Of a stretch of DNA of 64,000 nt, positions 8,427 to 64,000 are shown one piece after another. The notes under the pieces are model-generated. The model was given only the letters and a program-made list of their open reading frames with translations. It searched no databases and had not been told where the DNA came from. Position 1 is the stretch's first letter, and every line of letters begins with the position of its first letter. Both the position numbers and the translations under genes were made by a program. This stretch comes from a virus: IMG/VR virus record IMGVR_UViG_3300037427_000542, positions 1 to 64,000 of that record. One strand, given 5' to 3'.

Positions 8427-8434
8427 TATAAATA
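8427..8434 (+). promoter_or_regulatory. Late promoter, upstream of gp23
   Basis: Exact TATAAATA just after the gp22 stop codon and about 45 bases before the gp23 ATG, the same arrangement as in T4. Confidence 0.8.
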
Positions 8435-8479: not shown

Positions 8480-9745
8480 ATGTATCTTTCAGAAGAACTA
8501 CAAAATAAGTGGAGCCCAGTTCTTGAACATCCTGAACTCAATGAGATCAAGGACCCGTACAAGAAGGCGGTAACCACAGTAGTACTCGAAAACCAAGAGA
8601 AGGCTCTTCGTGAAGAAAAAGAAGCTCTTTTCGAGGCTACACATGCTAACCAAACAGGTGCAAGCGTTGACAACTACGATCCTATATTGATCTCACTAGT
8701 TAGACGTGCTTTACCTAACCTTATGGCTTACGATGTTTGTGGAGTACAACCAATGTCTGGACCAACTGGTCTAATCTTTGCAATGAAATCTCATTTCACC
8801 AGTCAAACTGGCGCTGAGGCTTTATTCAACGAAGCAGACACTGATTTCTCAGGTGCAGGTACACATGCTGGAGCTAATCCAGTAGACGGTACTTACACTA
8901 CAGGAAACGGGGTATCTACAAGCACTGCAGAAGGTTTTGGAGACTCAACTACACTAAATGAAATGGCTTTCTCAATCGAGAAAACAACTGTTACTGCTAA
9001 GTCCAGAGCGTTAAAAGCTCAGTACACAGTAGAACTAGCACAAGACTTGAAAGCTGTTCATGGTTTAGATGCGGAATCCGAACTTTCCAATATTCTTTCT
9101 CAAGAAATTCTTGCAGAAATTAATCGTGAAGTTATTAGAACTATCTACAAAGTAGCAAAAACTGGTTCTGCCAGCACAGCTACTGCCGGAACATTTGACT
9201 TAGATGTCGACAGTAACGGAAGATGGTCCGTAGAAAGATTTAAAGGTCTTTTATTTAATATCGAGCGTGATGCTAATGTCATCGCACAAGACACAAGGCG
9301 TGGTAAAGGTAACTTCATCATCTGTTCATCAGATGTTGCTAGTGCTCTTTCAATGTCAGGTGTACTTGACTATGCTCCAGCATTATCAACTAATTTAAAT
9401 GTTGATGACACAGGTAATACATTTGCTGGCGTACTTAACGGTCGTTATAAAGTATACATTGACCCATATTCTGCAAATACAGGAGCTGCTAGCCAGTTCT
9501 ATGTATGTGGTTATAAAGGCACAAGCCCTTATGACGCAGGTCTATTCTACTGTCCGTATGTTCCACTACAAATGGTAAGGGCAATTGACCCTGCTACATT
9601 CCAGCCAAAAATTGGTTTCAAAACCAGGTATGGCATGATAGCTAACCCATTCGTAATGCAGTCAGACGGCACTACAGATGGAGACACATTTACAGCAGAC
9701 AGAAACCAATACTACAGAAGTGTAAAAGTTTCTAACTTAATGTAA
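8480..9745 (+). CDS. 23: Major capsid protein gp23
   Basis: Main hexameric subunit of the head shell. Recognisable family features are the N-terminal propeptide, PILISLVRRALPNLMAYDV, the GVQPMSGPTGLIFAM stretch and the C-terminal MIANPFVMQ region. The gp21 consensus (hydrophobic-X-Glu) predicts cleavage after Glu52 in EALFE/ATHANQ, removing about 5 kDa. Strong AAGGAG site upstream. A factor-independent terminator follows 26 bases after the stop codon. Confidence 0.96.
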   Translation: MYLSEELQNKWSPVLEHPELNEIKDPYKKAVTTVVLENQEKALREEKEALFEATHANQTGASVDNYDPILISLVRRALPNLMAYDVCGVQPMSGPTGLIFAMKSHFTSQTGAEALFNEADTDFSGAGTHAGANPVDGTYTTGNGVSTSTAEGFGDSTTLNEMAFSIEKTTVTAKSRALKAQYTVELAQDLKAVHGLDAESELSNILSQEILAEINREVIRTIYKVAKTGSASTATAGTFDLDVDSNGRWSVERFKGLLFNIERDANVIAQDTRRGKGNFIICSSDVASALSMSGVLDYAPALSTNLNVDDTGNTFAGVLNGRYKVYIDPYSANTGAASQFYVCGYKGTSPYDAGLFYCPYVPLQMVRAIDPATFQPKIGFKTRYGMIANPFVMQSDGTTDGDTFTADRNQYYRSVKVSNLM

Positions 9746-10138: not shown

Positions 10139-10146
10139 TATAAATA
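10139..10146 (+). promoter_or_regulatory. Late promoter, upstream of iscU
   Basis: Exact TATAAATA 22 bases before the iscU ATG. If used, the Fe-S assembly genes are expressed late, together with virion genes, rather than as early takeover genes. Confidence 0.7.
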
Positions 10147-10168: not shown

Positions 10169-10597
10169 ATGGCATATTCAAAAAAGGTAGTAGATAGATT
10201 TAATGATGTTTTAAATAACCCAAAATCACATGGAGTTGGCAGGTTCGATCCTAAAGACCCAAATGTTGCTACAGGCATGACGGGAGCACCGGCATGTGGA
10301 GATGTTATGAAGTTAGATTTAAAAGTAAATCCAGATACTGATGTTATTGAAGATGTAAAGTTCAAAACATACGGTTGTGGAAGTGCTATTGCTAGTTCTA
10401 CAATGTTTGTGGAAATGTTAAAGGGTATTACAATGACTCAGGCTTTAGAAATTAAAGATAAAGACATTGCAGAAGCTTTAGAATTACCACCTATTAAATT
10501 ACATTGTTCTGTATTAGCAGAAGATAGTATTAAAAGAGCCCTACAAGATTGGGACGAAAAAAAGAAACATAGAAATCATAATAGGGGGCCTGAATGA
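10169..10597 (+). CDS. iscU: IscU-type Fe-S cluster scaffold protein
   Basis: Scaffold on which [2Fe-2S] clusters are built before delivery to apo-proteins. All ligand residues known for IscU are visible: Cys43 and Asp45 in ACGD, Cys70 in YGCGSA, and His112-Cys113 in LHCSVLAE. The LPPIK motif (106-110), which in bacteria recruits the HscA chaperone, precedes the last ligand. Length 142 is slightly above the usual 125-130 because of a charged His/Lys tail. It overlaps the start of iscA by four bases, so the two are coupled. Confidence 0.93.
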   Translation: MAYSKKVVDRFNDVLNNPKSHGVGRFDPKDPNVATGMTGAPACGDVMKLDLKVNPDTDVIEDVKFKTYGCGSAIASSTMFVEMLKGITMTQALEIKDKDIAEALELPPIKLHCSVLAEDSIKRALQDWDEKKKHRNHNRGPE

Positions 10598-30876: not shown

Positions 30877-33429
30877 ATGCCAAATCAAATAGAAGTAAAA
30901 TCAATATTAGCCAAGTTATTAGCTACTGAAGACATCAGTGTTGAGCATGATGCGAAAGCACCAACAGCAGCATTTGATGTTAAAAACAGAAAGCTATATC
31001 TTCCAATGTGGAAGGACATGTCTAATGATATGTACGATCTATTTGTTGGACATGAAGTAGGACATGCACACGAAACTCCAGAAGAAGGATGGCATGATAC
31101 AGTTATTGATAACCCTTCACTTAAAGGCTTTCTTAACATTATAGAAGACGCTAGAATTGAGCGTAAAGTAAAAGAAAGATATCCTGGACTTGTTAAGTCA
31201 TTCCACAAAGGCTACCAAGAATTATTCGACAAAGACTTTTTTGGTGTTAAGGATAGAGACTTAACCAAACTTCCATTTGTAGATAGAGTAAATCTTCATT
31301 TTAAAATTGGACACTTACTTGGTCTTAAATTTACAGAAACAGAACAGAACTTCCTAGACAGAGTTGCAAAGACTGAAACATGGGAAGATGTAGAGTTACT
31401 TGCTAATGAACTAGCAGACATTTCCAAACAAGAAGCTGAGGACAGACAAGACGAACTAGAACCACTTCAACAGATGTTAGATGATTTAATGTCAGAAATG
31501 AATGATGCTCAAGAACAACAACCTTCATGGGACGACTATCAACCAGCTCACCAGAAAGAAGAAGAGTCAGAAGATGGCGAGGGTGAAGGCGAAGGCGAAG
31601 GTGAGGAAGACGATACTAAAGATGAATGGGGTAACCCTAAGCCAGGTACTCCAGGCGGTTCACAAGGCGAAGACGAGACAGAAGAAGAGTACTTAAAAAG
31701 AAACGAGAAAGAATGGGAAGCAGAACAACTAAAACGCCAAGAAGAAAGAGCTCGTAGACAAAAAGAATGGGAAGCAGAACAAAAAGCTGAAGAACTTTTT
31801 GCCAAAGACAAACAAGAAAACAAAAAGAAACAAGAAGAGCTTAAAGAAGCTATTGAAGAAGTTGAAAAGATGCATGGCTTCCTAGACAACGAAGGCCAAA
31901 AATCAATTACAGATGAGGAGTTTAGAAGAAACGAATCAGAACTTGTTGATGTAGACGCTAAACCAATCCAATACATTAGCCCTCAGAAAATGTTCAAGTC
32001 TAAAGACTGGATTGTTTCAATGGACGAACTATATGATTGGGAAAAATCAATTGAATTATCAGAAGTTACAAAGACTAGCGATGAATATTATGGTTATGAC
32101 GATAAAGAAGTTCCTAACTCAGAACTTAAAGGCATAGCTTCTAAGTTATATCAAGAGTTTCTTAAGGACACAGCTCCAGTAATAGCATCCATGGCTCAAC
32201 AGTTTGAACTTAAAAAAGCAGCAGCTGCTAACAAGAAGGCTAGAGAAGCTAAGTCAGGTGATCTTAATGAGGACAAGCTTTGGGCTTACAAATTGACTGA
32301 GGATTTATTCCAAAAGAATATGATTGTTCCTAACGGTAAGAATCATGGTATCATAATGTATGTTGATTTATCAGGTAGCATGCACAGACAAATGGAAGGT
32401 ACTCTAGAACAGATGATGAATATGGCAATGTTCTGCAGAAAAGTTAACATTCCATTTGATGTATATGGTTTCTCAAACAATCGTCCATATGATTATGATA
32501 CTAGAGAGTCTACTAGTCCTTGGAGTGAGAATAGAGACATGAACAAAAAGGCAATGCAGAATGTAGAAGACGGCGAAATCCTAATGACGGATGAGAATTT
32601 TGCACTTGTTCATATGTTAAGCTCAACATGTAAGAAAACAGATTTCATCAACGCAATGTCATACTTATTACTTATGAAAATAGGTTATGGTAGAGGTAGA
32701 TATTACTCAGATGTTTATAATAATGATAACCCTTACCATGGAAATATCAGTAACGAATACTTTAGACTAGGAGGCACACCTCTTAATTCAGCAGTAATAC
32801 TAGCAACTGAAGTGGCTAAGACTTTCCAAAAGAAATACAATGTAGAATTACTTACTACAATATTCTTAACAGACGGTGGTGCTACAGACGGTGTTACATA
32901 CAGAAAAGCAGAAAGAGACTCTGAGGACAGAGTAGGAACTGATAGTGTATACTCAGATCAGATTGCTATTAAAGACGGTCCAATAGTAACTAGACTTCCA
33001 CAGAAAGATGGTTACTCCAGAAGAGATAATGTTACTACACAGACACTCTTAGAACATTACAAAAGAGTTACTGGCTCTACACTAATCAACTTCCACATTG
33101 TTGACGGTAAAAGAGATGCCTTCCACTCAGAACATCAAGCAGATGTTTGGATGGATGAAGGTAAAGAAGCAGATTACTATATGTCCAGCGATTGGATTGA
33201 GAATGTATGGAAAGATGTACTTGCCAAGAAGTTTGCAGTTACTACTCCTAAATTTGGATACGACGCTAGGTTCCTTCTTAAAGGCAGAGATGATCTTAAG
33301 ATTGAGAACAAAGAGTTAACTGTTAAGTCTAATAAGAAAGGAGACTTACTTAGAGGTTTCAGAAACTTCAACAAAGGCAAGAAGACTTCTAGAACATTCC
33401 TTAACCAAATCATCGATATGGTAGCTTAG
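30877..33429 (+). CDS. CobT-like VWA-domain metallopeptidase-type protein
   Basis: An 850-residue protein. A putative zinc-metalloprotease HEVGHAHE motif lies near residue 60, with NIIEDARIERK as a possible third-ligand helix. A long charged coiled-coil and Glu/Gly-rich linker (about 190-330) follows. The C-terminal von Willebrand A domain has the MIDAS start MYVDLSGSM and FLTDGGATDG. This is the architecture of phage CobT-like proteins. Its partner is the AAA+ gene at 33641, as in CobS-CobT or RavA-ViaA pairs. Role in cobalt chelation is not proven. Confidence 0.82.
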   Translation: MPNQIEVKSILAKLLATEDISVEHDAKAPTAAFDVKNRKLYLPMWKDMSNDMYDLFVGHEVGHAHETPEEGWHDTVIDNPSLKGFLNIIEDARIERKVKERYPGLVKSFHKGYQELFDKDFFGVKDRDLTKLPFVDRVNLHFKIGHLLGLKFTETEQNFLDRVAKTETWEDVELLANELADISKQEAEDRQDELEPLQQMLDDLMSEMNDAQEQQPSWDDYQPAHQKEEESEDGEGEGEGEGEEDDTKDEWGNPKPGTPGGSQGEDETEEEYLKRNEKEWEAEQLKRQEERARRQKEWEAEQKAEELFAKDKQENKKKQEELKEAIEEVEKMHGFLDNEGQKSITDEEFRRNESELVDVDAKPIQYISPQKMFKSKDWIVSMDELYDWEKSIELSEVTKTSDEYYGYDDKEVPNSELKGIASKLYQEFLKDTAPVIASMAQQFELKKAAAANKKAREAKSGDLNEDKLWAYKLTEDLFQKNMIVPNGKNHGIIMYVDLSGSMHRQMEGTLEQMMNMAMFCRKVNIPFDVYGFSNNRPYDYDTRESTSPWSENRDMNKKAMQNVEDGEILMTDENFALVHMLSSTCKKTDFINAMSYLLLMKIGYGRGRYYSDVYNNDNPYHGNISNEYFRLGGTPLNSAVILATEVAKTFQKKYNVELLTTIFLTDGGATDGVTYRKAERDSEDRVGTDSVYSDQIAIKDGPIVTRLPQKDGYSRRDNVTTQTLLEHYKRVTGSTLINFHIVDGKRDAFHSEHQADVWMDEGKEADYYMSSDWIENVWKDVLAKKFAVTTPKFGYDARFLLKGRDDLKIENKELTVKSNKKGDLLRGFRNFNKGKKTSRTFLNQIIDMVA

Positions 33430-56414: not shown

Positions 56415-57132
56415 GTGGACATTTGGGTTTACATACTTTAATGAACCACATAAGCTAGAGATACAAATGGACACCTGGTCCAAATGGCCAGGCAATGTAG
56501 ATATCTTTATCGTTGACGATGGTTCAGATCTATATCCTGCCAAGCCATTACTAGAAAATTTTCATTTAGAAGATTGGCAACCTACTCTACAACTTTGGAG
56601 AGTCACAAGAAATATAGGCTTCAACTCTCATGGCTGTAGAAATCTTATAGCCAAATATGCAGACACAGATTGCATACAATTCTTAGATATAGATCATGTG
56701 ATGTATGCTCCCGATGTTGCTAAACTTAAACAAATGAAAGTAGGAAGTAAGGATATTATTCATCATAAAAACTATAATGAATATCAACAAACAGTAAAAG
56801 ATCATCCAGGCCATATGAATTGTTTTGGTATACACAAAGATTTATTTTGGGAAGCTGGAGGTTATGATGAATCTTTTACCGGCCATCATTATGGAGATAG
56901 AGAATTTTTAGATAGAGTATTTGAATTAGAACACAGGAAGATAAAATCTACTTGTATTACTTCAATGAACCGTGAAGGTAGACATGGAAGAGTAAATCCT
57001 AATAAGTCTATAACTGAATACGATCCAACCGATGATAAGTTTTTCTGGGTACCGTTGGCAGTAGATGAAGTTAAAAAACTTAGAGGAACAAAAACACAAA
57101 GATTAGATTTTCCGTTTATTAAAATATTATAA
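56386..57132 (+). CDS. GT-A (family 2-like) glycosyltransferase
   Basis: A 248-residue inverting-type glycosyltransferase. VDIFIVDDGSD is the nucleotide-sugar strand, WRVTRNIGFNSHGCRNLIA the second motif, CIQFLDIDHVM the metal-binding Asp-x-Asp, and GGYDESFTGHHYGDREF the acceptor-side motif. The start is ATG 56386 inside the previous gene. With the nucleotidyltransferase at 55378 it may modify virion proteins or host surface glycans. Confidence 0.8.
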   Translation: MLQKSKANHRWTFGFTYFNEPHKLEIQMDTWSKWPGNVDIFIVDDGSDLYPAKPLLENFHLEDWQPTLQLWRVTRNIGFNSHGCRNLIAKYADTDCIQFLDIDHVMYAPDVAKLKQMKVGSKDIIHHKNYNEYQQTVKDHPGHMNCFGIHKDLFWEAGGYDESFTGHHYGDREFLDRVFELEHRKIKSTCITSMNREGRHGRVNPNKSITEYDPTDDKFFWVPLAVDEVKKLRGTKTQRLDFPFIKIL

Positions 57133-57135
57133 ATA
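57128..57135 (+). promoter_or_regulatory. Late promoter five bases before an ATG
   Basis: Exact TATAAATA overlapping the glycosyltransferase stop, with CTGTT between it and the ATG at 57141. With the T4 geometry (octamer at -13 to -6) transcription starts on the A of the ATG. Confidence 0.75.
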
Positions 57136-57140
57136 CTGTT

Positions 57141-58316
57141 ATGCGCTTTACTGAATTTTTAAAAGAAGATAAAGAAGAAGATAAACTTAAACATCTAGAG
57201 CATGTTGAGGATCATGTAATCCATGCTGGACATGAAGGCTTTGGACATGCGTTCCATACAATTAATGATGTTCATAATGATTTACAAGGTAAAGGCAAAT
57301 CTCAGACACAAACAACTATTAAATATGATGGCAGTCCTGCCGTTGTATTTGGGAAACATCCTGAGAACGGAAAGTTCTTTGTAGCATCTAAATCAGCATT
57401 CAATAAAACACCAAAGATTAATCACACCCATGAAGATATAGATAAGAACCACGGGCACGCACCAGGTCTTGTATCTAAACTTAAAGCAGCTTTAGATCAT
57501 GCACACAAAATAGAGCCTAATGGAGTCTATCAAGCAGACATTATGCACGCTGGAGATGTTAAACACGATAAGAAAAATAATAGAGTAGACTTTACACCAC
57601 AGTTAATTACATATCATGCACCAGCAGATTCAGATCACGGTAAGGCAGCTCAGAAAGCTAAGCTAGGGTTAGCAATACATACGGAGTATGAGGGTAAGAC
57701 AATAGCCGATATGAAAGCCAAACACGGCGCTATTGACTCTAATACCTTCAAAAAGCACAAGGATGTGCACCTTATGAGTGCTAATCACGATCTTAGTACA
57801 CATAGGTATAGTTTAGAAGATCGTAAGCAAGTAGACCATCATTTAGAACAAGCTGTAGCACACTTTAAAAATACACCCAGAGAACACCACGATACAGTTC
57901 AAAAACATGCTACAGCCTTAAAGACTTATGTAAACCATACAGTACGAACAGGCGAACAACATTCACATGAGGGGTTCGTAGCACATCACAGTAAGAGTCA
58001 TCAGAAGAAGGTAGATGGTGTTAAGACAGATGTTGCTAAAGCAAGACATCAAACTACTATGGATAACACCTTAGGACATATAAATAAGAATAAGGAACAC
58101 TTCGAAGGTCCAATGAATATGCACAAACATCTTCAAGCGGCTAAGAATATTTTAACAACTACCATGTCTCAAAAGTCAGAATTTGGACATGAAGTAGACG
58201 GACAGAAAGTTAAACCAGAAGGTTTTGTTGCCATACGAAATGGCAGACCTTCTAAATTTGTAGACAGGAAGGAGTTTAGTGCGCTAAACTTTAACAAGAA
58301 TGACAACAGAAAATAA
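57141..58316 (+). CDS. Ligase/nucleotidyltransferase-like late protein
   Basis: A 391-residue His/Lys-rich protein of a type common in cyanophages. TTIKYDGSPAVVFGKHPENG (Lys61-x-Asp-Gly) resembles motif I of covalent nucleotidyltransferases such as DNA/RNA ligases. GVYQADIMHAGD and VKPEGFVAIRNG could be later motifs. The N-terminus MRFTEFLKED looks like a T4 capsid-targeting peptide with a possible gp21 site (Leu-Lys-Glu). No ribosome binding site fits; the mRNA is predicted to be leaderless. Confidence 0.75.
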   Translation: MRFTEFLKEDKEEDKLKHLEHVEDHVIHAGHEGFGHAFHTINDVHNDLQGKGKSQTQTTIKYDGSPAVVFGKHPENGKFFVASKSAFNKTPKINHTHEDIDKNHGHAPGLVSKLKAALDHAHKIEPNGVYQADIMHAGDVKHDKKNNRVDFTPQLITYHAPADSDHGKAAQKAKLGLAIHTEYEGKTIADMKAKHGAIDSNTFKKHKDVHLMSANHDLSTHRYSLEDRKQVDHHLEQAVAHFKNTPREHHDTVQKHATALKTYVNHTVRTGEQHSHEGFVAHHSKSHQKKVDGVKTDVAKARHQTTMDNTLGHINKNKEHFEGPMNMHKHLQAAKNILTTTMSQKSEFGHEVDGQKVKPEGFVAIRNGRPSKFVDRKEFSALNFNKNDNRK

Positions 58317-59166
58317 AGATAAACATATAGTATTTTCATATGGTAGGATGAATCCACCAACTGCTGGACATTCTAAGGTAGTGGACAAAGTTAAGTCTCA
58401 CGCAGATGCTATTGGCGCTAATCACGCAGTTATAGTTAGTCATTCTCAAAATCAAAAAGACAATCCATTACATCACGAACACAAAAAAGAATTTCTAAAA
58501 CATGTACACCCTGATGTAAACTTTGAACATTCTACAAAAGAACACCCACACTTCTTGGCACAGCTTAAAAAGTTTCATCAAGAAGGACATACACACGCAA
58601 CAATGGTTGTTGGTAGTGATAGAGTAAAACAATTTAAAGCGTTGGCACATAAGTACAACGGCAAAGAATACGATTATAAAAAGATACATATCTTATCTGC
58701 AGGACAGAGAGACCCTGATGCAGAAGGAGTCACTGGTATAAGTGGAACAAAGATGAGAAATCATGCTAGCAATAATGATTACAAATCTTTTAAGGCAGGA
58801 TTACATGCCAATCATAATGATGAACAAGCTAAGAAACTCTTTAAGGCAACGCGCCAAGGTATGAACTTACAAAAAGAGGAGAGAGGCATGAAGGATTTTG
58901 CTACATTTTTAACAGAAGACATGGAAGGCATGTCTCAAAAGTCTGGAGATAAAAGAAGTACAGAGAGTGGTGCAGGCATGACAGCCAAAGGTGTCGCTAA
59001 ATACAACAGACGAACAGGTGGTAATCTAAAAACAGCAGTAACTACACCACCAAGCAAACTTAAAAAAGGCAGTAAAGCAGCAGGAAGGCGTAAGTCTTTT
59101 TGTGCCAGGTCCAAAGGTTGGACAGGCGAGAGAGGCAAAGCTGCTAGAAGGAGATGGAATTGCTAA
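58300..59166 (+). CDS. Nucleotidyltransferase fused to a basic phage domain
   Basis: A 288-residue two-part protein. Residues 1-180 are a HIGH-type nucleotidyltransferase: FSYGRMNPPTAGHSKVVDKV, TMVVGSDRVKQF and GISGTKMRNHA. Residues 197-288 are a basic domain: KDFATFLTEDMEG, GMTAKGVAKYNRRTGGNLK and a Cys/Arg-rich end, known as a separate domain (DUF6321-like) in related phages. An internal ATG at 58888 with GAGGAGAGAGG ahead could express the second part alone. Confidence 0.8.
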   Translation: MTTENKDKHIVFSYGRMNPPTAGHSKVVDKVKSHADAIGANHAVIVSHSQNQKDNPLHHEHKKEFLKHVHPDVNFEHSTKEHPHFLAQLKKFHQEGHTHATMVVGSDRVKQFKALAHKYNGKEYDYKKIHILSAGQRDPDAEGVTGISGTKMRNHASNNDYKSFKAGLHANHNDEQAKKLFKATRQGMNLQKEERGMKDFATFLTEDMEGMSQKSGDKRSTESGAGMTAKGVAKYNRRTGGNLKTAVTTPPSKLKKGSKAAGRRKSFCARSKGWTGERGKAARRRWNC

Positions 59167-59468
59167 TACTTACTAGACTAGCTATAGCATGTGTAACAGC
59201 AGTATTTGGAAACGCTTTTAGTAAATGGTTTCTTAATACAAAAGTAGGCGCATGGTTTCAACTTAAAATAAACAAACTAATGTCATTCTTAGCAGATAGA
59301 TATAACATAGAGGTTGCTAAGAAAGAAGCTAAATGGAGATCAGATTATCCTATGTTAGCTGAAAGAATAGATTTATTAGAAGATAAGGCACATTACAAAT
59401 GTGGACTTTCAGACTTTGACGGCTTTGAACAGATCGATGAAAGAATTAGGAAGTTAGAGAAGAAATGA
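59154..59468 (+). CDS. Hypothetical protein with N-terminal hydrophobic helix
   Basis: A 104-residue protein: hydrophobic MELLILTRLAIACVTAVFG, then a basic amphipathic segment and a charged C-terminal helix (ERIDLLEDKAHYK, IDERIRKLEKK). AGAAGGAG site ahead; overlaps both neighbours. Position directly before the spanins suggests a lysis or membrane role, unproven. Confidence 0.5.
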   Translation: MELLILTRLAIACVTAVFGNAFSKWFLNTKVGAWFQLKINKLMSFLADRYNIEVAKKEAKWRSDYPMLAERIDLLEDKAHYKCGLSDFDGFEQIDERIRKLEKK

Positions 59469-59833
59469 GTAAGATATTAATAGGAATTATTGTAGCCATG
59501 TGCTTAGGCTTTGGTGGCTACTACTGGATGACAGAAAAGCGTCTTACAGTTCTAACTGAGAACAACGCTAAACTATCAATAGCAAATCAAACAAATCAAC
59601 AAACAATAGACAAACTTTCACAGGATTATGAGGAACAACAAGTACTTAATAAAGAGTTAGGTATAAAGTTAAAAGCCTCAGAAGCTTATGGAGATAACTT
59701 AGCTAAAAAACTAAGGGAACATGATTTAACAATGCTAACCCTAAAGAAACCAGGGTTAATTGAACGGAGGGTGAATAGTGCCACAGATAAGATTCTTAAA
59801 GATCTCGAGTCTAGTACTGCTACTGTTAATTAG
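59465..59833 (+). CDS. Inner-membrane spanin (Rz-like)
   Basis: A 122-residue protein with one N-terminal membrane helix (ILIGIIVAMCLGFGGYYWM) and a long periplasmic coiled coil (NNAKLSIANQTNQQTIDKL and onward), the layout of i-spanins that fuse inner and outer membranes in the final lysis step. Its 3' end overlaps the lipoprotein gene by 56 bases in another frame, the classic Rz/Rz1 arrangement. Confidence 0.75.
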   Translation: MSKILIGIIVAMCLGFGGYYWMTEKRLTVLTENNAKLSIANQTNQQTIDKLSQDYEEQQVLNKELGIKLKASEAYGDNLAKKLREHDLTMLTLKKPGLIERRVNSATDKILKDLESSTATVN

Positions 59834-60176
59834 TAGTGGTTGTAGTCTTATACCTGCACAGGTAGAAGTACAAACTAAATTCGTAGAGAAACAAATACCA
59901 ATACAAGGACATCCTAAGGGTGTAACTATGTATCCTATGCAGTTTTATGCTGTAACAAGCGAGAACTACGAGGAGTTCAAAGAGAAATTTGAGAAAGAAA
60001 ATGCAGATTTAGTATATTTTGCATTGAGTGTTCCGGATTATGAGAACTTATCTTTAAATATAGGTGAACTAAAACGCTACATAGAACAACAAAAGACAAT
60101 CATTATATATTACGAACAATCCATAACAGGAATTAAGGCAGAAATAGTTTTGGAAGACGACAAAGCCAAAGACTAA
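59778..60176 (+). CDS. Outer-membrane spanin-like lipoprotein (Rz1-like)
   Basis: A 132-residue lipoprotein starting at GTG with GGAGGGTG ahead. The signal SSLVLLLLISSGC contains a lipobox with acylated Cys at about residue 22. The mature part has VEKQIPIQGHPKGVTMYP and a helical C-terminus. It overlaps the Rz-like gene in a different frame. It is longer than many Rz1 proteins. Confidence 0.75.
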   Translation: MPQIRFLKISSLVLLLLISSGCSLIPAQVEVQTKFVEKQIPIQGHPKGVTMYPMQFYAVTSENYEEFKEKFEKENADLVYFALSVPDYENLSLNIGELKRYIEQQKTIIIYYEQSITGIKAEIVLEDDKAKD

Positions 60177-60181
60177 TCTTG

Positions 60182-60189
60182 TATAAATA
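60182..60189 (+). promoter_or_regulatory. Late promoter five bases before an ATG
   Basis: Exact TATAAATA, then AGAGT, then the ATG at 60195. Same geometry as at 57128 and 62889, predicting a leaderless late mRNA. Confidence 0.75.
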
Positions 60190-60194
60190 AGAGT

Positions 60195-61577
60195 ATGAAG
60201 ACTTTTACAACATTCATGGAAGACTTAGCTTCAGGTAGACCAATGAAGAAACCTGTATCTAGTAATTTGTTACAACAAAGAGCTAAAGAAAATACTAAAG
60301 CTCTAAAGTCAGGTTTTATGAAGTTAACAAAACAAGAAAGAGATAAAGAAGCTCGAAGAATGTCAGAAGAGAAAAAGAATTGTGGGTGTGGCCAAGATCC
60401 TTGTATCACATATGGCAAAAAACAAATGAAAGAAGAAGACGGTTCGTATTATGGTAAACCATCACCAAGACTTAAAAAGAAAGTAAAAGGTGCCAAAGAA
60501 GTCGTTAATAATCCTTATTCTAAAGACGATGGTAAAACTGTTGTTGCAAAGCAGAAAAAATATCAGCCACAGCTGTCAAAAAGCAAACAAGGTATAAATA
60601 ATGTACTGAAGTTTTTAAAGAAAAATCCGGATTATAAGATTGGAGCCCATAGCCTAAAGAAAAAATCTAAAAGACTAGGTGAAGCTACAGCATCAGAAGT
60701 ATTAAAGAAAAGATATGCTTCCGATCATCCAGATGATAATCCACATAATCAGAAAAGAATTAAAGATCACCTTCCTGGTATGAAAACTTATAAATTGCAC
60801 CCAGGTGCTAAAGCAACTGATGGTGGTGAATGGTCTAAGAAAGGCAAAATGAAAGCTTTAAAGAAACAAATTAAAAGACGCCCTGAACAATATGGAGTAA
60901 CAGAATCAGCCAGAGATAATTACGATCCTGTAATTTCAGATAAAAGAACAAAAGAAAAACTTAAGAAGGCAGGGTTACCACCGGAGTCTCCTAAAGTAAT
61001 GGAAGCTAAGAAACCTGTAGTACACAGCACAAAGCCAGACAGTCTTAAAACAATTAAGATTAAATATAACAAACCTATTAGAACTAAAGTAACAGACATT
61101 GGAGCTGGCGGAAAAGAGTATGTCAGAAAAGATTGGTCTGAAGAAACATTTAAACCTCATGATATGTGGAGTCCTAAAGGCGAGAAGAAATTTGCTAAAA
61201 CAGAAAAAGAACATTTAGCATTAAAAGACAAAGGCTGGGGACATAATAATCCTAACAAATCAGAAGAAAAGAAAAAAGGATTAGACGGCAAAGCATGTTG
61301 GGACGGTTATAAGCAAATGGGCACCAAGAAAAAAGGTGGCAAAACTGTAGATAATTGTGTTAAGATGAAAGAAGAACAAATTCAAATAGTAACTAACTTA
61401 GATTTTAATGAAAGTATTGGTAACTTGGTAAGACGTGGGTTAGGTAAAGTTAGATCAGCTATTAAAGATTCAGAAAAGAGAACAGGCTTATCCGTAGACG
61501 CAAGTAAAAACAATACAAACAATCCAGTATCTGGCAAGAACATTGCTAAAAGACTGGCATCGCAAAAAAAAAGGTAG
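60195..61577 (+). CDS. Basic late protein, probable internal head protein
   Basis: A 460-residue Lys-rich protein. The N-terminus MKTFTTFMED resembles the capsid-targeting peptide of T4 internal proteins (MKTYQEFIAE). Several short modules follow, including EKKNCGCGQDPC, EVLKKRYASDHP and KGLDGKACWDGYKQMGTKKKGG...VDNC. The frame stops just after an A9 run at 61564-61572, while the -1 frame continues without a stop into the 61661 gene, so this may be the first half of one longer protein. Function unknown. Confidence 0.65.
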   Translation: MKTFTTFMEDLASGRPMKKPVSSNLLQQRAKENTKALKSGFMKLTKQERDKEARRMSEEKKNCGCGQDPCITYGKKQMKEEDGSYYGKPSPRLKKKVKGAKEVVNNPYSKDDGKTVVAKQKKYQPQLSKSKQGINNVLKFLKKNPDYKIGAHSLKKKSKRLGEATASEVLKKRYASDHPDDNPHNQKRIKDHLPGMKTYKLHPGAKATDGGEWSKKGKMKALKKQIKRRPEQYGVTESARDNYDPVISDKRTKEKLKKAGLPPESPKVMEAKKPVVHSTKPDSLKTIKIKYNKPIRTKVTDIGAGGKEYVRKDWSEETFKPHDMWSPKGEKKFAKTEKEHLALKDKGWGHNNPNKSEEKKKGLDGKACWDGYKQMGTKKKGGKTVDNCVKMKEEQIQIVTNLDFNESIGNLVRRGLGKVRSAIKDSEKRTGLSVDASKNNTNNPVSGKNIAKRLASQKKR

Positions 61578-62881
61578 CAATACCTAACTCCGCTAAGAAA
61601 GACTTAGACAAACAATCCAAATCCAGAGATAAAAATTGGTGGAAACACCAAGACAAATCTATGTCTGAGGCAAGCACAAACAAATTTAGTCTAAAGGGAA
61701 CAGAGGACGGGCCTTTAAGTTCTATGCCAAAAGGTACTAAGCCTATAGGAAGTCGAACTAAAAAGAACAAAGTATATGAAGATGCTCGATATGATCCTAC
61801 ACCAGGTGGTATGGAATGGGGCACACCTCAAGGCACAGATTATTTTAAATCCTTAACACCAGGCGAAGGTAAGGAAAGAGAAAAACCTTTAAAGCCTTTA
61901 AACATTAAAGCAAGAAAACCTGAAGACGAGAAGGGTGTTAAAGTTACAGAAGGCTATTGGCAAGATAGAAATGCCAAACAAAAAGAAACATTAGCTAAAC
62001 ATGATAAAGCAATGATAGACTCAGCAAAGAAGTCTATTAAGAAGTATGATGTTGCTAAAAAGATAAAAGAAAATTTAGATCTATCTCATATAGAAGATAA
62101 ACAGGCAGACCATAGTAAACATCAATACCCTATTAACAATGAAGTAGAGACACACGACACAGGTGATAAGGGACATTGGCTAACAGGTAAAGATGGTGAT
62201 TGGTATATAGAACAAGATGATATTACAGAGTTAGATAAAGAGGCAGAAAACTTTTCATTTAAGGATGCTGTAGATCTAGGACTATATGACGATGATGAAC
62301 TAACTTATGATGACTACGATAATACACCAGGTTTTGATAATGAGACAGAAATTACTGAGGCACTATCAGTACAGGGTCGTTTAAAAAGACGATTTAATGC
62401 ACGAAGAAACAAACAAAAATTAAAAGTAGCTAGGCGTATAGCATTACGAAGAGGATCTACTCCAGACAGACTTAAGAAGAGAGCAACCAGGGGTGCAAGG
62501 CTCATGGTTTACAAACGACTTCTCAGGGGTAGAGATAGAGCAGGATTACCACCAGCAGAGAAGGCTCGTTTAGAGAGAATGATTACTAGATTCCAACCAC
62601 TAGTAAGTCGTATATCTGTTAAACTATTACCTCAGATGAGACAGAATGAAATTAAAAGACTTACATCAAGAGGTAAGTTAAAAGCCAAAACTAGTAAGAA
62701 ATTTAAAGCAGCTAAACCAGTGAAGAGCGCTTCACAGAAAAGAGCTAAGAAGTTTAAAATAAAGGTTAACAAATATAAAGCACCTAAGAAGAAAGCAGTT
62801 AAAGCTAAATATGCTTCAGGTGGACCTACACTTAAGAAAGCAAGTAAAGCCTATAAAGCCTTTTCATATTCCATAGGTTAA
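61550..62881 (+). CDS. Basic late protein, possibly continuation of 60195 by frameshift
   Basis: The frame is open from 61550; the first ATG is 61661 (406 residues), but upstream codons already read as the same Lys-rich protein type (VAIPNSAKKDLDKQSKS). A shift of -1 on the A9 run would join it to the 60195 frame. The middle contains SHIEDKQADHSKHQYPINNE and an acidic part; the C-terminal 160 residues are extremely Arg/Lys-rich (RRFNARRNKQKLKVARRIAL). No good ribosome binding site precedes ATG 61661. A DNA-binding virion role is inferred. Confidence 0.6.
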   Translation, partial: KTGIAKKKVAIPNSAKKDLDKQSKSRDKNWWKHQDKSMSEASTNKFSLKGTEDGPLSSMPKGTKPIGSRTKKNKVYEDARYDPTPGGMEWGTPQGTDYFKSLTPGEGKEREKPLKPLNIKARKPEDEKGVKVTEGYWQDRNAKQKETLAKHDKAMIDSAKKSIKKYDVAKKIKENLDLSHIEDKQADHSKHQYPINNEVETHDTGDKGHWLTGKDGDWYIEQDDITELDKEAENFSFKDAVDLGLYDDDELTYDDYDNTPGFDNETEITEALSVQGRLKRRFNARRNKQKLKVARRIALRRGSTPDRLKKRATRGARLMVYKRLLRGRDRAGLPPAEKARLERMITRFQPLVSRISVKLLPQMRQNEIKRLTSRGKLKAKTSKKFKAAKPVKSASQKRAKKFKIKVNKYKAPKKKAVKAKYASGGPTLKKASKAYKAFSYSIG

Positions 62882-62888
62882 TCCAACA

Positions 62889-62896
62889 TATAAATA
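62889..62896 (+). promoter_or_regulatory. Late promoter five bases before an ATG
   Basis: Exact TATAAATA, then CCTGT, then the ATG at 62902. Third case of the same geometry. Confidence 0.75.
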
Positions 62897-62901
62897 CCTG
62901 T

Positions 62902-64000
62902 ATGAACCACGGTATTATAATGGGTGGTGTGGTTGACTATTATTATGATTCAATCAAACGAGCACCCGGCGCACATAAAATTGCTACACATCTTAGACGA
63001 GAAGGATGGGACGTCGAGGTATTAGATTTTGTTCAATCATGGACATTAGAAGAACTGCAAGAGTTCACAAGACAAAGAGTACATTCAGGTACAAAGTTCC
63101 TCGGCCTTAGTGCTACATTTTCCATTAGATTTAAAATACTATTTGAATTCGCCAGATGGTTTAAGAAAGAATATCCAGACATTCTAATCATAGGAGGCTC
63201 GCAGGCATTCCATAATTGTGAGGGACTGCCTTTAGATTATATGGTACATGGCTACGGAGAACTGGCTATGAGTGCTATTCTTAGAGGAGATGTTAAGTAT
63301 CAGACACATAAATGGCTTAATGGACACAAATTTAGGCGCGTAGACGCTACACATGACTATATGGCAGCGCGTATGAAAGACCTAAGTACATATTACGAGG
63401 AAAGGGACTATATAGAGCCACAGGAGGTCCTTACAGTAGAGTTTGGTCGTGGGTGTATATTTAATTGCCACTTTTGTACCCTCACTTACAGGAACATTAA
63501 GGACGATCACAGCAGGGCTGAGGACAACTTATATAAGGAAATGTTGGAGAACTATAATAAATGGGGCACAACAAACTATTCTATATCAGACGAGACAGTA
63601 AATGATTATACAGAAAAGATAGAAAGATTTGCTGGTGCTATTAGAAAGTTACCTTTCAAACCTAATATGGCAGGTTATATTCGTGGAGACTTATTAGTAC
63701 ATAAACAAAAAGACTGGCAAGCAATCGAGGATATAGGACTCAATACACAATTCTATGGTATAGAATCTTTTCATACACCTTCAGCAAAGTCTGTAGGTAA
63801 AGGTATGCAGTCAGGTAAACTACAAGATGGTTTACTAGAATATAAAGATCACATGAGAAGTAAAGGACACTTTCAGGCACATTTAAGTTTAATAGCAGGC
63901 CTCCCACATGAAACATTAGATACATTAAGAACTACAAAGAAATGGATAGTAGAAAATTGGGTGGGACAATCATCACAAATAATGCCTTTATGGATTCCAG
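62902..64000 (+). CDS. Radical SAM protein with B12-binding-like domain, 3' truncated
   Basis: Open frame from ATG 62902 to the window end (366 codons seen). The N-terminal 140 residues follow the cobalamin-binding Rossmann pattern (FLGLSATFSIRFKILFEFA, ILIIGGSQAFHN, YMVHGYGELAM). The radical SAM motif is FGRGCIFNCHFCTLTY. A YGIESFHTPSAKSVGKGM stretch is typical of the B12-dependent subgroup. The canonical Asp-x-His-x-x-Gly base-off motif is not seen. Predicted leaderless late mRNA. Substrate unknown. Confidence 0.8.
   Translation, partial: MNHGIIMGGVVDYYYDSIKRAPGAHKIATHLRREGWDVEVLDFVQSWTLEELQEFTRQRVHSGTKFLGLSATFSIRFKILFEFARWFKKEYPDILIIGGSQAFHNCEGLPLDYMVHGYGELAMSAILRGDVKYQTHKWLNGHKFRRVDATHDYMAARMKDLSTYYEERDYIEPQEVLTVEFGRGCIFNCHFCTLTYRNIKDDHSRAEDNLYKEMLENYNKWGTTNYSISDETVNDYTEKIERFAGAIRKLPFKPNMAGYIRGDLLVHKQKDWQAIEDIGLNTQFYGIESFHTPSAKSVGKGMQSGKLQDGLLEYKDHMRSKGHFQAHLSLIAGLPHETLDTLRTTKKWIVENWVGQSSQIMPLWIP

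Follow-up and report, generated by a model that had tools for sequence, protein, structure and literature searches.

The window analyzed here comprises bases 1 to 64,000 of an 83.6-kb virus record (the remaining 19.6 kb is designated L086) and has a G+C content of 36%. It contains 20 copies of the octamer TATAAATA, compared with 9.45 +/- 3.2 in shuffled sequences, so that the motif is enriched. The octamer matches the T4-type late promoter, with a variable T at -13, and copies of this type stand upstream of the tail sheath, portal region, scaffold and major head genes. In the whole record, the octamer followed by exactly five bases (N5) and then ATG is found five times on the forward strand (57128, 60182, 62889, 1244 and 73986) and never on the reverse strand, and the reversed control pattern is absent. 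Three of these sites, at 57128-57135, 60182-60189 and 62889-62896, had been named in the original prediction, and all three were verified. The sites, together with two contrasting late promoters, are as follows.

57128..57135, + strand: late-promoter octamer TATAAATA of predicted leaderless gene 1, intact in 40 of 40 close orthologous contigs
57136..57143, + strand: N5 spacer CTGTT and ATG; predicted +1 at A57141, in line with the purine signature at octamer+6 of leadered promoters
57141..58316, + strand: predicted leaderless gene 1, DUF6267 protein of 391 aa (Pfam PF19782, E=8.5e-97)
60182..60189, + strand: late-promoter octamer of predicted leaderless gene 2, followed by spacer AGAGT and ATG
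60195..61577, + strand: predicted leaderless gene 2, 460 aa, N-terminus MKTFTTFMED; predicted +1 at A60195; conserved, apparently slippery A9 run at its end
62889..62896, + strand: late-promoter octamer of predicted leaderless gene 3, followed by spacer CCTGT and ATG
62902..64000 and running beyond the window, + strand: predicted leaderless gene 3, B12-binding radical SAM protein (Pfam PF04055, E=7.8e-9); predicted +1 at A62902
1244..1295, + strand: fourth N5 site in the window; octamer 1244-1251, spacer GTAGG, ATG at 1257, 12-codon ORF
73986, + strand, in the rest of the record outside the window: N5 octamer of a small homing-endonuclease-like gene starting at 73999 (L086:9999-10331)
8427..8434, + strand: contrasting leadered late promoter of gp23 (assigned by PHROG 138), with N45 to the ATG at 8480 and the Shine-Dalgarno (SD) motif AAGGAG
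10139..10146, + strand: contrasting leadered late promoter of a NifU/IscU-like gene, with N22 to the ATG at 10169

The ATGs at 57141, 60195 and 62902 open ORFs of 391, 460 and more than 366 codons, respectively. At the first of them, the stop codon of an upstream glycosyltransferase-like ORF (57130-57132) falls within the octamer, and the N-terminus MRFTEFLKED is conserved from ATG 57141 in close orthologs. This N-terminus and that of the 60195 gene may resemble the peptide by which internal head proteins of T4 are targeted to the capsid. Between the two genes, at 59465-60176, two overlapping ORFs match the Rz-like spanin families phrog_739 and phrog_812. The 12-codon ORF at 1257-1295 (MIIKTCVIHKII) lies within the leader of gp18, the tail-sheath gene, which starts at 1312 behind its own SD motif, AGGAG. 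It may represent a leaderless upstream ORF or be due to chance; G001 and L161 carry a near-identical 1244-1295 region, too alike for selection to be judged.

The 60195 gene ends with CAA AAA AAA AGG TAG, containing an A9 run (61564-61577). A run of A9 or A10 is present at or near the same place in the window and in all six homologs compared (L009, L010, L014, L018, L020 and L021), and in all seven sequences the -1 frame stays open for 176-499 codons past it (435 in the window, through the ORF at 61661-62881). This conserved run looks like a programmed -1 frameshift site or a (transcriptional) slippage site, which would yield a long fusion protein.

Spacing between octamer and start codon

Spacing was surveyed in two panels. 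Panel A consists of this genome, its close relatives and the isolates HTVC008M, Mosig and Melnitz; panel B comprises 80 gp20 contigs. In panel A, with G001 regions added for this count, ATGs that open an ORF stand at N5 from 66 distinct octamers, compared with an average of 1.2 for each of the other spacings from 0 to 14; in panel B, the corresponding values are 28 and 0.8. Pooled distinct (N)ATAAATA sites, counted before the addition of G001, number 1 at N4, 61 at N5, 3 at N6 and 9 in total at N7-N14, with a broad spread from N15 onward. Some of the close contigs are related and duplicates were removed only by 30-base context, so Poisson p-values overstate their independence, but the spike does not depend on these values because N5 is also found at unrelated genes of separately isolated phages. 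Among 387 sites, the triplet at offset 5 is ATG in 67, GTG in 8 and TTG in 3 (GTG and TTG counted without filtering for real ORFs), and ATG counts at other offsets range from 2 to 18. The start codon of the N5 class is AUG rather than GUG or UUG, as is expected of leaderless mRNAs.

The distance is also conserved at individual genes. A close ortholog of the 57141 gene (74-94% identity) is present in 40 contigs; the octamer is found in all of them and the N5 spacing in all but three, which have N6, while the upstream flank and the spacer sequence vary. For the 60195 gene, the AGAGT-ATG spacing is retained in L009, L010, L011, L014, L018, L020 and others. Six orthologs of the 62902 gene retain ATAAATA-N5-ATG, the first base of the octamer being T in three, C in one and A in two, and most contigs retain the arrangement at the 73999 gene. 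The fixed distance claimed from the three window sites is therefore borne out by the survey of the genome and its relatives; free variation among related genomes was looked for and not encountered. In many contigs, small endonuclease-like genes of the homing endonuclease and HNH families repeatedly come with an N5 late promoter of their own, an example being Melnitz 120742-121041 on the reverse strand.

Predicted position of the transcription start

In T4, the late octamer has been mapped to -13 to -6 of the transcription start (PMC1524935), and the same geometry would therefore place +1 on the A of the N5 ATG. Late promoters with an SD-containing leader point to the same position. A purine stands at octamer+6 in 84 of 96 such promoters in panel A (88%) and in 101 of 130 in panel B (78%), while the purine share at octamer+5 is low (49% and 43%, respectively). 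This pyrimidine-to-purine step is the usual transcription-start step and supports +1 on the A of the ATG, although the purine signature is statistical and offset +11 is as purine-rich as +6 in panel B. SD motifs are scarce in the N5 class: they precede 2 of 66 N5 genes versus 57 of 95 leadered genes (N14-40) in panel A (p=3e-15), and 3 of 28 versus 80 of 103 in panel B. The near absence of sites at N7-N14 can be explained by a start at +6, which would leave leaders too short for an SD motif. Reduced structure at the 5' end was considered as a general mark of N5 genes and dropped, as predicted structure is low in panel B (p=5e-8) and not in panel A (p=0.11).

Several N5 octamers are preceded by sequences that leave no room for another leader. 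A hairpin and T-run end a few bases before the octamer in HTVC008M (6280 and 75559), at the gp2 and gp3-like genes of Mosig, and at 32927 in G001. Nine panel-B contigs likewise have a terminator hairpin and T-run directly upstream of an N5 octamer; among the automatic terminator calls in panel A, two or three (L038, L108 and perhaps the Mosig FA-desaturase) look like chance. In HTVC008M, gp2 and gp4 are divergent, with 26 bp between their start codons.

The N5 genes thus very probably have gp55-type late promoters with a predicted transcription start at the A of the initiating ATG. The leaderless reading first proposed for the three window genes gains support from the N5 spike, the scarcity of SD motifs and the purine peak at octamer+6; from this promoter geometry, we infer both the 5' ends of the mRNAs and their ribosomal route. 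The phage late sigma factor gp55 would bring the polymerase of the host to (T)ATAAATA, and transcription would begin at the sixth base past the octamer. For N5 genes, this base is the first of the ATG, which would give a leaderless mRNA translated by recognition of its 5'-terminal AUG, without SD pairing. The clade would then use two designs with almost nothing between them: a leadered one (octamer, about 14 or more bases, usually an SD motif, start codon) and a leaderless one (octamer, N5, ATG). Late sigma factor, late-transcription coactivator and sliding clamp (gp55, gp33 and gp45) are annotated in HTVC008M, Mosig and Melnitz. Phage bS21 was considered as an enabling factor and rejected: it occurs in these three isolates, but a search of G001 and of this partial record did not reveal it, so as far as seen it is not required for the N5 class.

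N5 genes might instead be translated from read-through polycistronic mRNA by termination-reinitiation, with the octamer serving as a minor internal promoter. Several N5 genes have a same-strand ORF that ends 8-20 bp ahead of them, and read-through mRNAs may also carry such genes. All three in the window are of this kind, the upstream stop being 8, 18 and 20 bases from the respective ATG. As the full explanation, however, reinitiation is improbable: the spacing is fixed to the octamer and not to the upstream stop, and where an N5 gene follows a terminator or a divergent gene no translated ORF precedes it on the transcript. It is slightly less probable still that the promoter works with RNA starting elsewhere, either farther upstream or, on behalf of a gene lying downstream, within the coding sequence, which would give a short leader or no start codon. 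RNA polymerase can vary by 1-2 bases on either side of +1, and the start position here is read from sequence, but the purine initiator signature at octamer+6, the mapped position of the T4 octamer (PMC1524935) and the nearly empty N7-14 interval, corresponding to leaders of 2-9 nt, all speak against a displaced start. Chance or a start-calling artefact in AT-rich DNA, where TATAAATA and ATG are both common at 36% G+C, is refuted by the five forward matches against no control match in the record, by permuted octamers of equal composition that give no N5 spike, and by a spike that appears in two panels and is missing from T4, KVP40 and cyanophages.

Distribution among T4-like phages and meaning of the N5 class

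Judged by the major capsid protein, the virus is closest among cultured phages to Methylophilales phage Melnitz and to Pelagibacter phage HTVC008M, at about 69-70% each, followed by Pelagibacter phage Mosig (66%). The N5 ATG is the annotated start at 9 of 9 sites in HTVC008M (6280, 7562, 19456, 31132, 49760, 75559 and 142360, and 16007 and 18916 on the reverse strand), 7 of 8 in Mosig and 3 of 4 in Melnitz. The N5 genes include true late virion genes, namely gp2, gp25, gp48, the tape-measure gene and members of the tail tube family, and a gp3-like gene is also headed by an N5 site in the isolates; those of HTVC008M include gp2, gp25, gp48, the tape-measure protein and CsgF. The class had been thought limited to the 57-63 kb block, which proved wrong: N5 sites also lie at 1244 and 73986, and those opening ORFs in G001 (170 kb) span 24 to 156 kb. 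All but one of the 11 N5 sites in G001 open an ORF, among them the 12-codon ORF ahead of gp18.

Outside this group, N5 sites in T4, RB49, Syn9, S-PM2 and S-SKS1 occur only in tiny ORFs or inside longer open frames, with no credible start among them, and there are no such sites in KVP40 or DLP6. A single candidate at most, of 76 codons, is present in P-SSM2, the single-cell virus AG-345-F15 has one of about 75 codons, and more distant DUF6267 contigs lack N5 sites. A T4-wide feature was therefore rejected, as T4, RB49, KVP40 and the cyanophages tested are essentially without it. The N5 class is a feature of one large clade of marine T4-like phages, in which it is widespread and which includes known viruses of SAR11 and OM43.

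The late promoters of T4, which depend on gp55, gp33 and gp45, have the same octamer, the same inferred distance to +1 and the same association with late virion genes. T4 late genes use leaders with SD motifs, and T4 differs in that its two ATAAATA-N5-ATG sites, one inside uvsW and one intergenic with a 6-codon ORF, are attributable to chance. Cyanophages share the late motif, reported as NATAAATA in S-PM2 and Syn9 (PMC2984593), and Syn9, S-PM2 and P-SSM2 belong to the Kyanoviridae, the same family as HTVC008M, but they differ in lacking the N5 class, apart from the single P-SSM2 candidate. Leaderless translation has been described for the lytic Thermus phage phiYS40, which is reported to have mRNAs translated without a leader while host IF2 goes up and IF3 goes down (PMC3594737, a review). 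That phage belongs to another phage group and has another host; here a T4-type late promoter would set the start, and a leadered class coexists. In one survey, middle and late promoters of pelagimyophages were not satisfactorily predictable (PMC7029224). T4-type late promoters and leaderless phage mRNAs are each known, and the precise joining of the two, as a class of genes in marine T4-like phages, is apparently unreported; no report linking TATAAATA with leaderless late phage promoters was found in the open-access literature, which is weak evidence of novelty.

It may be speculated, with considerable doubt, that the leaderless class is a regulated regime, in which the phages or the state of the host shift late initiation toward recognition of a 5'-terminal AUG. 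If so, the position of the promoter would determine when chosen late genes are translated and also by which mode. The cultured relatives infect the ocean bacteria SAR11 and OM43, and the pattern predicts the 5' ends of their late mRNAs to the base. It also aids the calling of start codons, as N5 genes are without the SD signal that gene finders use. The pattern points to a T4-like clade in which the transcription start would be the first base of translation for many late genes, and it might provide a natural system for studying high-output translation of leaderless mRNA in bacteria.
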